DNA of 64,000 nt from Peptococcaceae bacterium. Its GTDB lineage: Bacteria; Bacillota; Peptococcia; Peptococcales; Peptococcaceae. Positions within the stretch are counted from its first letter, which is position 1, and every line of letters begins with the position of its first letter. Shown here in pieces: positions 18,512-23,307 of the stretch. The stretch lies in the NCBI GenBank assembly GCA_017399005.1, contig JAFQEO010000035.1, positions 248,001 through 312,000 on the forward strand, written 5' to 3'. The notes beneath the pieces were generated by a model. The model saw only the letters and a list, made by a program, of their open reading frames with translations, had not been told where the DNA came from and ran no database searches. The position numbers and the translations under genes are program-made.

Positions 18512-19417
18512 TTATTCAAAAATATTGGCTTCTATCAGCTGTTCCAGTGCAGATATTGCGGTATCATAGGAAACCGGCGTAAAAAGTAAAGAACGAGTTG
18601 TATTTTTATAATCCTCTTTATATGCTTCATTATCTATAATTTCTCGTAAAATTTTATTTACCGATACCCCATCTGCTGCCGATAAGCATGTTTTGTGCGG
18701 CTGGCGTTCTTCTCTTACTTCTTCGGCAAGGTCTTTGAGGTTTTGACCTGGGAATACAATTTCTAAAAGCCGGAAAATATCGTAGATATGTCTGGAATGT
18801 TCTATTACGGAACCATTCAGATAATAATTACATAGAGCAAAAACCTTATCTACCAGGGTGCGTTCTGCTGTCTGTACACGAATTTCAAAAGGCTCCATCT
18901 GATATTGTGCAATAAACCCGGTATAATCGTTTTCTGACAGGTAATCGTATATATAACTGGCTACAGGCATCAGTTGTGTTGGATAGGTGCGAAAAAAGAT
19001 TGTTGTTTCCACCTGTAAATGAGGTTTCAGATAATTTTCAGAAAATATGGATGAATAACTTACCAGATAGCAATTGTATTCTCTTCGGCTTCGTATTTCA
19101 TCTGGATTCGTTAACAGCATCTCCCGATGTTCAATGGCTGAAACAATGTTTTCTTTCAGTCGTTTTCGCTGAGACTCAGTAGGCTTTTCGTCAAAAAAAA
19201 TGGTAAGATCAATGTCTTCTGAAAAACGGTCTATAATGCGATAACATTTGGATAAGGATGTGCCGCCTTTAAAAATAATATCAGGCTGAAGTCTCACAAT
19301 TTCCTGTAAAAGCAGTGTTACATAATAATCTTTCTCAATAATGGCTGCATCAATTTGCAGATATTCCGATGTTTGTAATACAACCTGCTCAAATAATTCC
19401 CTGTTATGATGTAACAA
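18512..19417 (-). CDS. AbiEii/AbiGii-type nucleotidyltransferase toxin
   Basis: This 301-aa protein has FKGGTSLSKCYRIIDRFSEDIDLTIF near residue 50 in shortened form: the G-G-T-S and D-x-D of the nucleotidyltransferase active site of AbiEii (type IV toxin-antitoxin). Such enzymes add nucleotides to tRNA or other substrates and stop growth on phage infection. A TTG start at 19417 follows GCGAGG and lies inside the last codons of the partner gene (14-bp overlap), the usual arrangement. Confidence 0.9.
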   Translation of the reverse strand: MLHHNRELFEQVVLQTSEYLQIDAAIIEKDYYVTLLLQEIVRLQPDIIFKGGTSLSKCYRIIDRFSEDIDLTIFFDEKPTESQRKRLKENIVSAIEHREMLLTNPDEIRSRREYNCYLVSYSSIFSENYLKPHLQVETTIFFRTYPTQLMPVASYIYDYLSENDYTGFIAQYQMEPFEIRVQTAERTLVDKVFALCNYYLNGSVIEHSRHIYDIFRLLEIVFPGQNLKDLAEEVREERQPHKTCLSAADGVSVNKILREIIDNEAYKEDYKNTTRSLLFTPVSYDTAISALEQLIEANIFE

Positions 19418-20024
19418 GATAAATAACCTCGCTTTCTATCAGTGTTCGCATAGCTTTATCGGGAAAAACAGGTGCATAACGGGTAATGTCCTTGCGTGTC
19501 AGATTGTTCTCCTGAATATAGTTTCTTATAATCTCACGCCGTTCTTCATTAAAATAAGAGGCCGGCACCTGATTCATCAGTTCCAGAAAGCACAATACAG
19601 CGGCATTTTCTTTTGTAATACCGGTACGTGCTTTTCGCAGAAGCACTTTCTGACTGCCGATTTTTACTTCTCGCACAATAGAGGTTTCATTATTGGTATA
19701 TATTTCAACGGTATTTGCCATCTGGGTTGATAAGCCGGTCTGATTCAGAAGTTTCACCCCTGCATAATAGCCAATTATCTCTGAGCCATTATACAGATAT
19801 TTTTTCTCCATTACTTTGTACGGGTTCAGTTTTCCCGGCCCAAAAGGGGTCTGGCTTGGAATATAGTATACACCTTTTTCAAAACGGACCAGTTTTTCAT
19901 CCGCACACAGCTTTGCAAGTTCTTTTGCAATCCAGGGCTTTGAATAATTCTCGTAAGTAATCTCTGCTTTTATAATCGGCTCATTCTGTCCATACGTTTC
20001 CAGTAAAGCTTCGTATAAACCCAT
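19404..20024 (-). CDS. AbiEi-like antitoxin (DUF6088)
   Basis: This 206-aa protein has an N-terminal winged helix (residues 18-55, WIAKELAKLCADEKLVRFEKGVYYI) and a C-terminal AbiEi-type domain (IIGYYAGVKLLNQTGLSTQ, VEIYTNNE, KVLLRKAR). It acts as the repressor and antitoxin of AbiEii. AAAGGAGGG precedes the ATG, and a sigma-70 promoter lies 28-56 bp upstream. Confidence 0.87.
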   Translation of the reverse strand: MGLYEALLETYGQNEPIIKAEITYENYSKPWIAKELAKLCADEKLVRFEKGVYYIPSQTPFGPGKLNPYKVMEKKYLYNGSEIIGYYAGVKLLNQTGLSTQMANTVEIYTNNETSIVREVKIGSQKVLLRKARTGITKENAAVLCFLELMNQVPASYFNEERREIIRNYIQENNLTRKDITRYAPVFPDKAMRTLIESEVIYLVTS

Positions 20025-20617: not shown

Positions 20618-20655
20618 AGCCCTCTGCACATTCGTGTGCGGAGGGCTGCTTTTTT
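20618..20655. terminator. Terminator between the Rpn-tail-like gene and fic
   Basis: Stem AGCCCTC-TGCACA with TGTGCG-GAGGGCT, then CTTTTTT on the plus strand; it can also serve the convergent fic gene. Confidence 0.85.
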
Positions 20656-21259
20656 ACAGTTCTTCTGTTTTATACAGGGTATAGCCTTCATAATAATAGC
20701 TGTGGTCAATGCCTTTCATATACATTTCCCGGCTGTGAATATCATCGGTGAGCGCATTCTGTAATAGATGTTTGATTTCATAATCTTTCACCGGGCTTCG
20801 TTCCATAGCCAGCAGATAATCATCTTTATCCACTTTGCTCCAGTCTATCACTTTGTGCAGTTCTGCGCGGAGCATTACATCCAGCCAGATACGCATACTG
20901 CGTCCGTTTCCTTCACGGAATGGATGGGCAATGTTCATCTCGATATACTTTTCGATAATTTCATCAAAATTGCTCTGCGGCATATGGTCAATGCTGGCAA
21001 TGGCTGATTCCAGATACATAACGGATGCAAAACGGAAACTGCCTTTTGAAATATTCACCGTGCGCAGTTCACCGGCAAAATCATAAATTTCATCAAACAG
21101 ATATTTATGGATAGCCTGCAGCGAGCGGAATGTTCCAGCTTCCAGCTGACTTAACCGGTCGCTTTCAAACAGTTCTATTGCTTTTTTTTTGCTGATTTTT
21201 TCTTCGGCATGTGCCAGTTCTACAGAACTGCTAAGCCCCAGTCTGTTTTTCAGTACCAT
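20654..21259 (-). CDS. Fic domain AMP-transferase-like protein
   Basis: This 201-aa protein carries the Fic signature HPFREGNGRSMR near residue 111, complete with the catalytic His. The upstream helix contains FAGELRTVNISKGSFRFA, the usual flap region. Fic enzymes transfer AMP or related groups to target proteins. No inhibitory S/T-x-x-x-E-G/N motif was identified with certainty, and no separate VbhA-like antitoxin gene is adjacent. GGAGGTG precedes the ATG. It may be a self-contained growth regulator or a toxin whose antitoxin was lost. Confidence 0.9.
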   Translation of the reverse strand: MVLKNRLGLSSSVELAHAEEKISKKKAIELFESDRLSQLEAGTFRSLQAIHKYLFDEIYDFAGELRTVNISKGSFRFASVMYLESAIASIDHMPQSNFDEIIEKYIEMNIAHPFREGNGRSMRIWLDVMLRAELHKVIDWSKVDKDDYLLAMERSPVKDYEIKHLLQNALTDDIHSREMYMKGIDHSYYYEGYTLYKTEEL

Positions 21260-22156: not shown

Positions 22157-22783
22157 TTAAAAAAGCTGGCCCGGGAGTTTCTCTTTTTTCTTATACGGAA
22201 ACGACTGGTCGAATTTCTCCGCTTCGTCTTCGCTTACAAAATAGCCCTGCGGTGTTGCATACTCGCCTGTAATGCCGTTAAGGTAGCCTGGCACTAATTC
22301 TTTGCACAGAAAGAACGATGCATCTTCGCCTTCCGGCAGCCCGTGATAACGGATGCCAAATTCGCTGGCAAAGGTAAATCCGCTTTTGCCGTAAAAATCA
22401 ATGTTGCCTTCAAAACAAACGGCTCCGCATCCAAGTTCTGCCGCTTTCTCCAGTGAGTAATCCAGCAGAATTTTTCCGTAACCCTTGCGTTTCAGTTCCG
22501 GCGTAATGCAGATTGGCCCCATAGTCATAATGGGAATCTCTCTGCCGTCATCGGCCCTGATAACCGCATGCATAAACACATTCTGCCCAATGAGCTGTCC
22601 GTCTTTTTCCATCACAAAATCCAGTTCCGGAACAAAAGCCGCATCTGTTCTCAGCTGGTTTAACACATAATGCTCTAAACATCCCGGCCGGTACACATTC
22701 CAGAATGCTTCCCGCACAAGGTTTTCTACTTCCCGGTATTCTTCTTTTCGTTCTAAACGAATGATGTAGTCATTTTTATTCAT
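22157..22783 (-). CDS. GNAT-family N-acetyltransferase
   Basis: This 208-aa protein has the GNAT core: MGPICITPELKRKGYGKILLDYSLEKA (the R/Q-x-x-G-x-G/A acetyl-CoA loop) near residue 95, and GNIDFYGKSGF later. It resembles the YhbS-type acetyltransferases that end in a poorly conserved C-terminal segment. Substrate not predictable. CAGGAGG precedes the ATG. The leader contains an extended hairpin (22801-22871). Confidence 0.88.
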   Translation of the reverse strand: MNKNDYIIRLERKEEYREVENLVREAFWNVYRPGCLEHYVLNQLRTDAAFVPELDFVMEKDGQLIGQNVFMHAVIRADDGREIPIMTMGPICITPELKRKGYGKILLDYSLEKAAELGCGAVCFEGNIDFYGKSGFTFASEFGIRYHGLPEGEDASFFLCKELVPGYLNGITGEYATPQGYFVSEDEAEKFDQSFPYKKKEKLPGQLF

Positions 22784-23036: not shown

Positions 23037-23065
23037 TTGACAGTATCTCTTTCAGCTTATAAAAT
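23037..23065 (+). promoter_or_regulatory. Promoter of the ABC-F gene
   Basis: Perfect TTGACA, a 17-bp spacer and TAAAAT. The transcript has a leader of about 235 nt. Confidence 0.8.
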
Positions 23066-23096
23066 AAATTCAGATATTACGAATTGAGGTGGGAAG

Positions 23097-23105
23097 ATGA
23101 AATAA
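23097..23105 (+). promoter_or_regulatory. Two-codon upstream ORF in the ABC-F leader
   Basis: ATG-AAA-TAA with GAGG 7 nt upstream, shortly after the predicted transcription start. Very short uORFs of this kind sense stalled ribosomes in attenuators of ABC-F resistance genes. A longer frame opens at TTG 23084 in another register. Confidence 0.5.
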
Positions 23106-23253
23106 GCATTTCTTGCAGAGTTTCAACACAGCATTCAAGAAACGGGTATGTTTTACCCTTTGTTTTTGTGCTGTTTTTTGCAGGAAAGCTATGGATTCTT
23201 CTGTTTATTTGGATGATACGGGCAGATTCTCTGCTTTTATGTTCTGTATCCCT

Positions 23254-23294
23254 AATAGCCGCGGAATTTCTTTCCTGCGGCTATTTTCTGTTTT
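23254..23294 (+). terminator. Attenuator terminator in front of the ABC-F gene
   Basis: A 9-bp stem AATAGCCGC/GCGGCTATT followed by TTCTGTTTT, ending just before the ribosome-binding site. An upstream word GCAGGAAAG (23180-23188) is the exact complement of CTTTCCTGC (23270-23278) in the loop and 3' arm, so it can form an antiterminator. Confidence 0.75.
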
Positions 23295-23307
23295 AGGAGG
23301 ATACAAT

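Follow-up and report, generated by a model that had tools for sequence, protein, structure and literature searches.

Gene content and layout of the leader

The window, by which we mean the whole 64,000-nucleotide stretch of Peptococcaceae DNA analysed here, carries at 23037-23307 a leader that runs directly into an ABC-F gene and is flanked on its other side by a divergent GNAT gene (Table 1). Farther away lie two adjoining minus-strand ORFs (18512-20024), which resemble an AbiEii/AbiEi-type pair, and an ORF at 20654-21259 that may encode a Fic protein.

Scored against the NCBIfam models, the ABC-F protein reaches 713.9 bits with NF000167 (ABCF_Lsa_all), short of the cut-off of 750, and it is therefore termed Lsa-like here rather than filed as Lsa; with NF000355 (ribo_prot_ABC_F) it scores 472.1 bits and passes the cut-off of 380. 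Its best relative of solved structure is Lsa(A) (7nhk, E 5e-128). LsaA and its group confer protection from pleuromutilins, lincosamides and streptogramin A (PMC10201436). Through most of the leader (23113-23307) the frame of this gene is open, giving a mechanical ORF of 553 aa from a TTG at 23113. This is probably due to chance, and it could lead an annotation program to mis-call the start of the ABC-F gene.

Table 1. Features of the leader and its neighbouring genes (window positions).
Feature	Position	Strand	Remarks
GNAT gene, divergent	22157-22783	-	Pfam; other side of leader
Promoter TTGACA-17-TAAAAT	23037-23065	+	11/12 consensus matches
Shine-Dalgarno of uORF, GAGGTGG	23086-23092	+	identical in kin L003 and L004
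5' strand of outer helix burying uORF Shine-Dalgarno/start	23092-23097	+	partner 23197-23202; fold
Two-codon uORF ATG AAA TAA (Met-Lys)	23097-23105	+	
Anti-antiterminator arm TTTCTTGC	23109-23116	+	+13 to +20 from uORF start
Antiterminator word GCAGGAAAG	23180-23188	+	partner either 23107-23116 or 23270-23278
Hairpin inside antiterminator helix	23220-23236	+	terminator scan and fold
5' strand of helix over ABC-F Shine-Dalgarno	23245-23253	+	partner 23296-23305; fold
Intrinsic terminator	23254-23294	+	stem 23254-23266/23272-23285, T-run 23284-23294
Terminator 3' segment CTTTCCTGC	23270-23278	+	target of antiterminator word
Shine-Dalgarno AGGAGG of ABC-F gene	23295-23300	+	
Lsa-like ABC-F ribosomal protection protein, 488 aa	23308-24774	+	

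A preliminary description of this DNA had named the promoter, the uORF with its ribosome-binding site, the antiterminator word, the 9-bp stem and the T-run, and each of these lies where it was placed. The outer terminator stem consists of AATAGCCGC and GCGGCTATT (23254-23262/23277-23285) and is followed by TTTTCTGTTTT. The same description held that every element of the switch can be seen; it had overlooked the arm TTTCTTGC behind the uORF, and it also omitted the helix over the Shine-Dalgarno of the ABC-F gene. The arm matters, because it is what a stalled ribosome would have to keep from pairing; in its absence nothing would link the uORF to the terminator. Reading by eye, we find a promoter of the form TTGACA-17-TAGAAT at the corresponding place in the homolog L003 and no obvious promoter at that place in the homolog L004.

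Two exclusive pairings of the antiterminator word

The word GCAGGAAAG is the exact reverse complement of CTTTCCTGC in the terminator. In the minimum-energy fold of the leader, which is more stable than all of 200 shuffles (z = -5.4), TTTCTTGC pairs instead with GCAGGAAA (23180-23187) in a helix that is extended on both sides, and the Shine-Dalgarno/start region of the uORF is buried in the outer helix. The antiterminator word can thus pair either with the arm behind the uORF or with the terminator's 3' part, and each pairing excludes the other; this is the classical logic of anti-antiterminator, antiterminator and terminator. An unbiased scan for 8-nt words that can pair with a partner on each side recovers exactly this triple, which was equalled by two of 500 dinucleotide shuffles. 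In a stretch of about 270 nt, chance would produce roughly 0.14 complements of 9 nt, so that the weight has to be carried by the comparison of homologs.

The terminator hairpin is absent from the list returned by a simple terminator scan, the likely reason being that more lies within its 9-bp outer stem than the loop of 3-8 nt allowed by the tool; RNA folding does find it. Taken alone it is worth -18.2 kcal/mol, against -13.6 kcal/mol for the antiterminator duplex. When the growing RNA is folded without a ribosome, the terminator forms, the antiterminator word remaining bound to 23107-23116. If a simulated ribosome footprint covers -18 to +16 relative to the uORF start, pairing of the word with the terminator's 3' part sets in when the RNA ends at 23274, and 23180-23188 is fully paired with 23270-23278 at 3' ends 23278-23280, a state never reached without the footprint. 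From 23282 onward the terminator is again the minimum-energy fold. Given this return and the greater stability of the terminator, the switch would, in the fold model, have to be kinetic. Masking the Shine-Dalgarno alone also flips the leader of the window in the model, which suggests that the arm itself need not be covered.

Leaders of homologous genes

Named contigs (23 loci), plasmids and further genomes yielded 225 unique upstream stretches of Lsa-type ABC-F homologs, a list that is not random, since 145 of them are from Paenibacillaceae and nearly all of these come from a targeted draw of that family. Seven loci lacking upstream sequence or a protein start were skipped, and 7 of 116 pieces with the start codon off the expected place were used unchanged. 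As a rule for the leader we required a Shine-Dalgarno word, a start codon placed 6-16 nt upstream of an arm of the TTTCTTGC type, and a complementary word downstream. This rule was written after examples had been seen, and 151 of the 225 leaders conform to it; ten shuffled sets of 225 gave 0, 0, 1, 0, 0, 0, 2, 0, 0 and 0 passes, and the reverse strand gave 11. A triple score of 16 is reached by 166 of the 225, against 6.8% of shuffled leaders. The 74 failures include some that arise from the narrowness of the rule and others that truly have no such leader; the close relative L003, with its diverged arm, also fails. In a draw across the phylum, 30 of 37 places were kept as loci and 22 of these 30 pass, with uORFs of three to eight codons in 18, two codons in three and a start-stop uORF in one. 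The draws at class and order level were small, with 46 and 21 genomes. A DNA search for the leader within the same family found it in three of 13 genomes, that of the window included. No Rfam family reaches its threshold in the window leader; RF02452 (ncr1575) scores 21.7 bits (E 0.43-0.55) over positions 1-212, under a gathering threshold of 60.

Covariation was assessed in alignment A1, for which 36 leaders were hand-picked for spread among the carriers of the motif. Of the cells in its four repressed-state helices 93.2% are paired, compared with 45-60% after sliding, and 21 of the 37 pairs in these helices have changed on both sides, above all 500 shuffles. Pairing is kept in 99.3% of cells in the arm helix (8 pairs) and 98.4% in the terminator (12 pairs), and RNAalifold finds both unaided. 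The helix over the Shine-Dalgarno of the gene has 87.0% of cells paired with 6/6 pairs changed on both sides, and the outer helix over that of the uORF 86.0% with 7/11. The competing antiterminator-terminator helix has 95.1% of cells paired; three of its pairs have changed on both sides, a count reached by 140 of 500 shuffles. More telling is base 4 of the antiterminator core: where it is G (seven rows), the terminator has C in all seven, and the arm has C in four and U in three. No kept aptamer-like core is present in A1.

All three words are present in 141 of the 151 leaders. A footprint at the start codon gives the antiterminator in 141/141, a result that is partly by construction since the leaders were selected for complementary words; in the same leaders the antiterminator forms in 12 without a footprint, in 12 with the mask placed 40 nt upstream and in 25 with it downstream. 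A mask ending at +16 suffices in 139/139 leaders of the three uORF length classes tested.

The distance from the start codon to the first base of the arm is held at +7 to +14 in 150 of the 151 leaders, and the uORF is free to vary in length, from one to eight codons in 149 of them (one codon, 63; two, 11; three to eight, 75; longer, 2). The commonest long uORF is MRNFSC, the last codons of which are the arm itself. The two kin of the window protein, at about 77% identity, both have two-codon uORFs, ATG AAA TAA in G006 (L003/L008/L030) and ATG AAG TAA, a synonymous change, in G010 (L004/L007/L031). Elsewhere two-codon uORFs encode MR (L049, L121, L122), MK (L095, L102, L203), ME (L137, L152) and MN (L207). 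L075, counted as two-codon by the rule, is better read as an ATG TAG start-stop. Among the leaders that fail the rule we read by eye start-stop uORFs in L050, L062, L066, L085 and L091, two codons in L003 and L122, and six in L059; labels of this kind were used in a tree of 106 proteins, a quick one with SH-aLRT support alone. In this tree the two-codon class (8 rows) needs four changes, at least three of them forced by well-supported branches, and the start-stop class (24 rows) needs seven, at least one of them forced. To judge from these sequences, the two-codon uORF arose at least three times.

The 63 one-codon uORFs comprise ATGTAA (30), ATGTAG (24), ATGTGA (8) and GTGTAA (1). By the rule they occur in 63 of the 145 unique Paenibacillaceae leaders and in none of the 80 others, one of which (L062, on a Paenibacillus plasmid) reads ATG TGA by eye and fails the rule. 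A further start codon near an SD-like word is present in 30 of the 63; the remaining 33 have none. Codons of the form T-purine-purine at the second place are TAA (31), TAG (24), TGA (8) and TGG (2), where independence of the two positions predicts about four TGG. These counts do not show that a stop at codon 2 is itself selected, as the stops would be explained equally well by a constraint on purines or on pairing. The uORF finder used in the field accepts by default nothing shorter than nine nucleotides (PMC10219788), so that start-stop uORFs, which have six, would be missed at that setting.

Several observations concern particular groups of leaders. The Paenibacillaceae (L041, L062, L066-L095, L126-L235) also have MDISC, MDFSC and MYISC uORFs beside the start-stop kind, and MYISC is one base away from a start-stop (TAT/TAA). 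The mobile lsa(E) gene of Enterococcus faecalis plasmid p11-27 (L063:551-1000) has the same leader with a six-codon uORF, MYNFSC; its terminator does not adjoin the gene but stands well upstream, separated from it by a further stretch. Eleven Paenibacillaceae homologs (L047, L202, L204, L208-L210, L212, L215, L216, L224, L230) are without the Lsa-type leader and share another recurring complementary triple, CCATGTTA/TGGCATGG/CCATGCCA, perhaps a different switch. The Lsa homologs L115, L118 and L119 have ATG ATT CGT TAG or ATG ATC CGT TAG (MIR) with unrelated arm words. The upstream regions of L010, L011, L012 and L065 (lsa(B)) are of other kinds that lack the TTTCTTGC arm, and the last three have an GGAAGGATTTTT-type hairpin in common, far upstream.

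Comparison with known attenuators and proposed mechanism

The leader has the architecture of the vmlR-type attenuator, a known kind: a short uORF with its Shine-Dalgarno at the 5' end, an anti-antiterminator overlapping the uORF and the ribosome footprint, an antiterminator and a terminator that exclude each other, and the intrinsic terminator directly before an ARE-ABCF gene. That leaders of ABC-F genes sense stalled ribosomes, as the preliminary description stated, agrees with the published attenuator of Bacillus subtilis vmlR (PMC9226507). There the uORF encodes Met-Ile-Asn, the initiation (30S) toeprint lies 16 nt from the A of the start codon, induction needs the start codon and Shine-Dalgarno of the uORF, and lincomycin and retapamulin are strong inducers and erythromycin a weak one (PMC9226507). 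The likeness extends to the order of the parts, with the uORF inside the anti-antiterminator hairpin, the antiterminator around a further hairpin, an intrinsic terminator, a helix over the Shine-Dalgarno of the gene and a PLSA-type ABC-F protein downstream (PMC9226507). The hairpin at 23220-23236 occupies the position of the vmlR pause hairpin SL-2 and may share its role. The two leaders differ in that vmlR has three codons where the window has two, and in sequence, as the low ncr1575 score indicates. From its consensus, AUG AUU AAC UAA, ncr1575 is probably the vmlR leader; a weak full-length match makes sense, since that consensus holds the vmlR uORF.

Other published ABC-F uORFs are MR[I/M] in cplR, MK[L/Q] in vmlR2 and MAGN in E. 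faecalis lsaA, the last unlike the six-codon type of most Lsa homologs here; these systems share very short uORFs, initiation-stalling drugs and attenuation with the window, and none of those named has two codons or a start-stop (PMC10201436). In Streptomyces are5sc and tiaA, lincosamides and pleuromutilins likewise stall the ribosome at the start codon of the uORF; the uORFs reported for these ABC-F leaders, MLV and MVGDDDISG, have three and nine codons, and the ABC-F subgroup and the RNA are others (PMC12421871).

We consider it very probable that a three-state, ribosome-operated attenuator controls the Lsa-like gene, and that it senses arrested initiation, with no role for the peptide. We infer from the architecture that the uORF is translated, what transcripts arise, and that drugs of certain classes induce the gene. 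In the absence of drug, ribosomes would start on ATG-AAA-TAA and leave at once; TTTCTTGC would pair with GCAGGAAAG, the terminator would form and transcription would stop near 23294. A drug preventing formation of the first peptide bond (lincosamide, pleuromutilin or streptogramin A) would park the ribosome on the start codon of the uORF, where it would cover the Shine-Dalgarno and reach to about +16 on the RNA. Neither the arm pairing nor the outer helix could then form, and the freed GCAGGAAAG would capture CTTTCCTGC as it emerges from the polymerase, so that the terminator fails. The helix over the Shine-Dalgarno of the ABC-F gene would probably be weakened too, and it is likely that translation of the read-through RNA is also controlled. 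The preliminary description was thus right as to the kind of device, a ribosome-controlled attenuator before an ABC-F gene, which homologs, covariation and footprint folding strongly support, and incomplete in missing the arm. It had also listed macrolides among the inducers. These are not expected, because macrolides need nascent-chain-dependent stalling, which a uORF of two codons cannot provide, and we have rejected macrolide sensing.

Control might be mainly translational, with the stalled ribosome freeing the Shine-Dalgarno of the ABC-F gene from 23245-23253/23296-23305 and termination in the leader playing a minor part. This helix does cover the Shine-Dalgarno in the window, all six of its pairs have changed on both sides, and both layers act in cplR of C. 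difficile (PMC10201436). A terminator with its T-run, the best-kept part after the arm (98.4%), would nevertheless be pointless on this account, which we regard as rather unlikely, and the two layers may work together. That the codons of the uORF themselves are sensed, as nascent peptide or by codon identity in the manner of the erm and msrD leaders, appears improbable. Met-Lys is kept in all three members of the lineage through a synonymous AAA/AAG change, vmlR uORF variants differ in strength (PMC9226507), and six-codon relatives keep a final SC; yet those SC codons are the arm TTTCTTGC itself, and the second codon varies, being K, R, E or N where the uORF has two codons and a stop in 63 of the 151 leaders.

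A two-codon ORF that works in cis in bacteria is known from axe-txe, where such minigenes regulate translation (PMC8708949); neither drug sensing nor an attenuator is described there, in the part of that source available. A minigene of this sort, acting through ribosome turnover, mRNA protection or peptidyl-tRNA drop-off and sensing no drug, would leave unexplained the three exclusive pairings, the held start-to-arm distance and the six-codon and one-codon uORFs at the same place, and seems to us very improbable. We find it hardly credible that the leader holds an ordinary constitutive terminator or a small-molecule riboswitch with a coincidental ATG-AAA-TAA. That none of the Rfam families reaches threshold in the leader would suit such a reading; against it, 151 of 225 leaders keep a Shine-Dalgarno and start codon at a fixed spacing from the arm, compared with 0-2 in each shuffled set, and A1 holds nothing like a kept aptamer core.

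Returning to the ribosome-operated attenuator, the reduction of the uORF while the geometry is kept points most simply to peptide-free sensing of arrested initiation. The chances seem to us about even that Lsa-type leaders as a whole are sensors of this sort, for which the start codon and a fixed arm distance are all that counts, so that the uORF may decay from six codons to two (in the window lineage and at least two others) and on to the bare AUG-stop of Paenibacillaceae, in which a ribosome parked with its A site over a stop codon would switch on an antibiotic-protection gene. As far as we have searched, the free length of the uORF (two codons here, one in relatives) at a kept geometry appears to be new; in the available portions of the open-licence literature we found no report of the Lsa leader family, or of two-codon or start-stop uORFs as bacterial drug sensors. 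A parallel to the Paenibacillaceae start-stop leaders alone, with no kinship, is Arabidopsis NIP5;1, in which a bare AUGUAA senses boron by ribosome stalling; that system is eukaryotic and works via mRNA decay and repression (PMC11915504). If the proposal is true, the start-stop leaders would be the bacterial counterpart of this plant AUG-stop sensor. On the question of peptide versus initiating ribosome, nature has already varied the uORF through one, two, five and six codons at nearly one start-to-arm distance. The leaders form a searchable RNA family, absent from Rfam at threshold, that stands before the Lsa-type genes of many Firmicutes, the mobile lsa(E) included.
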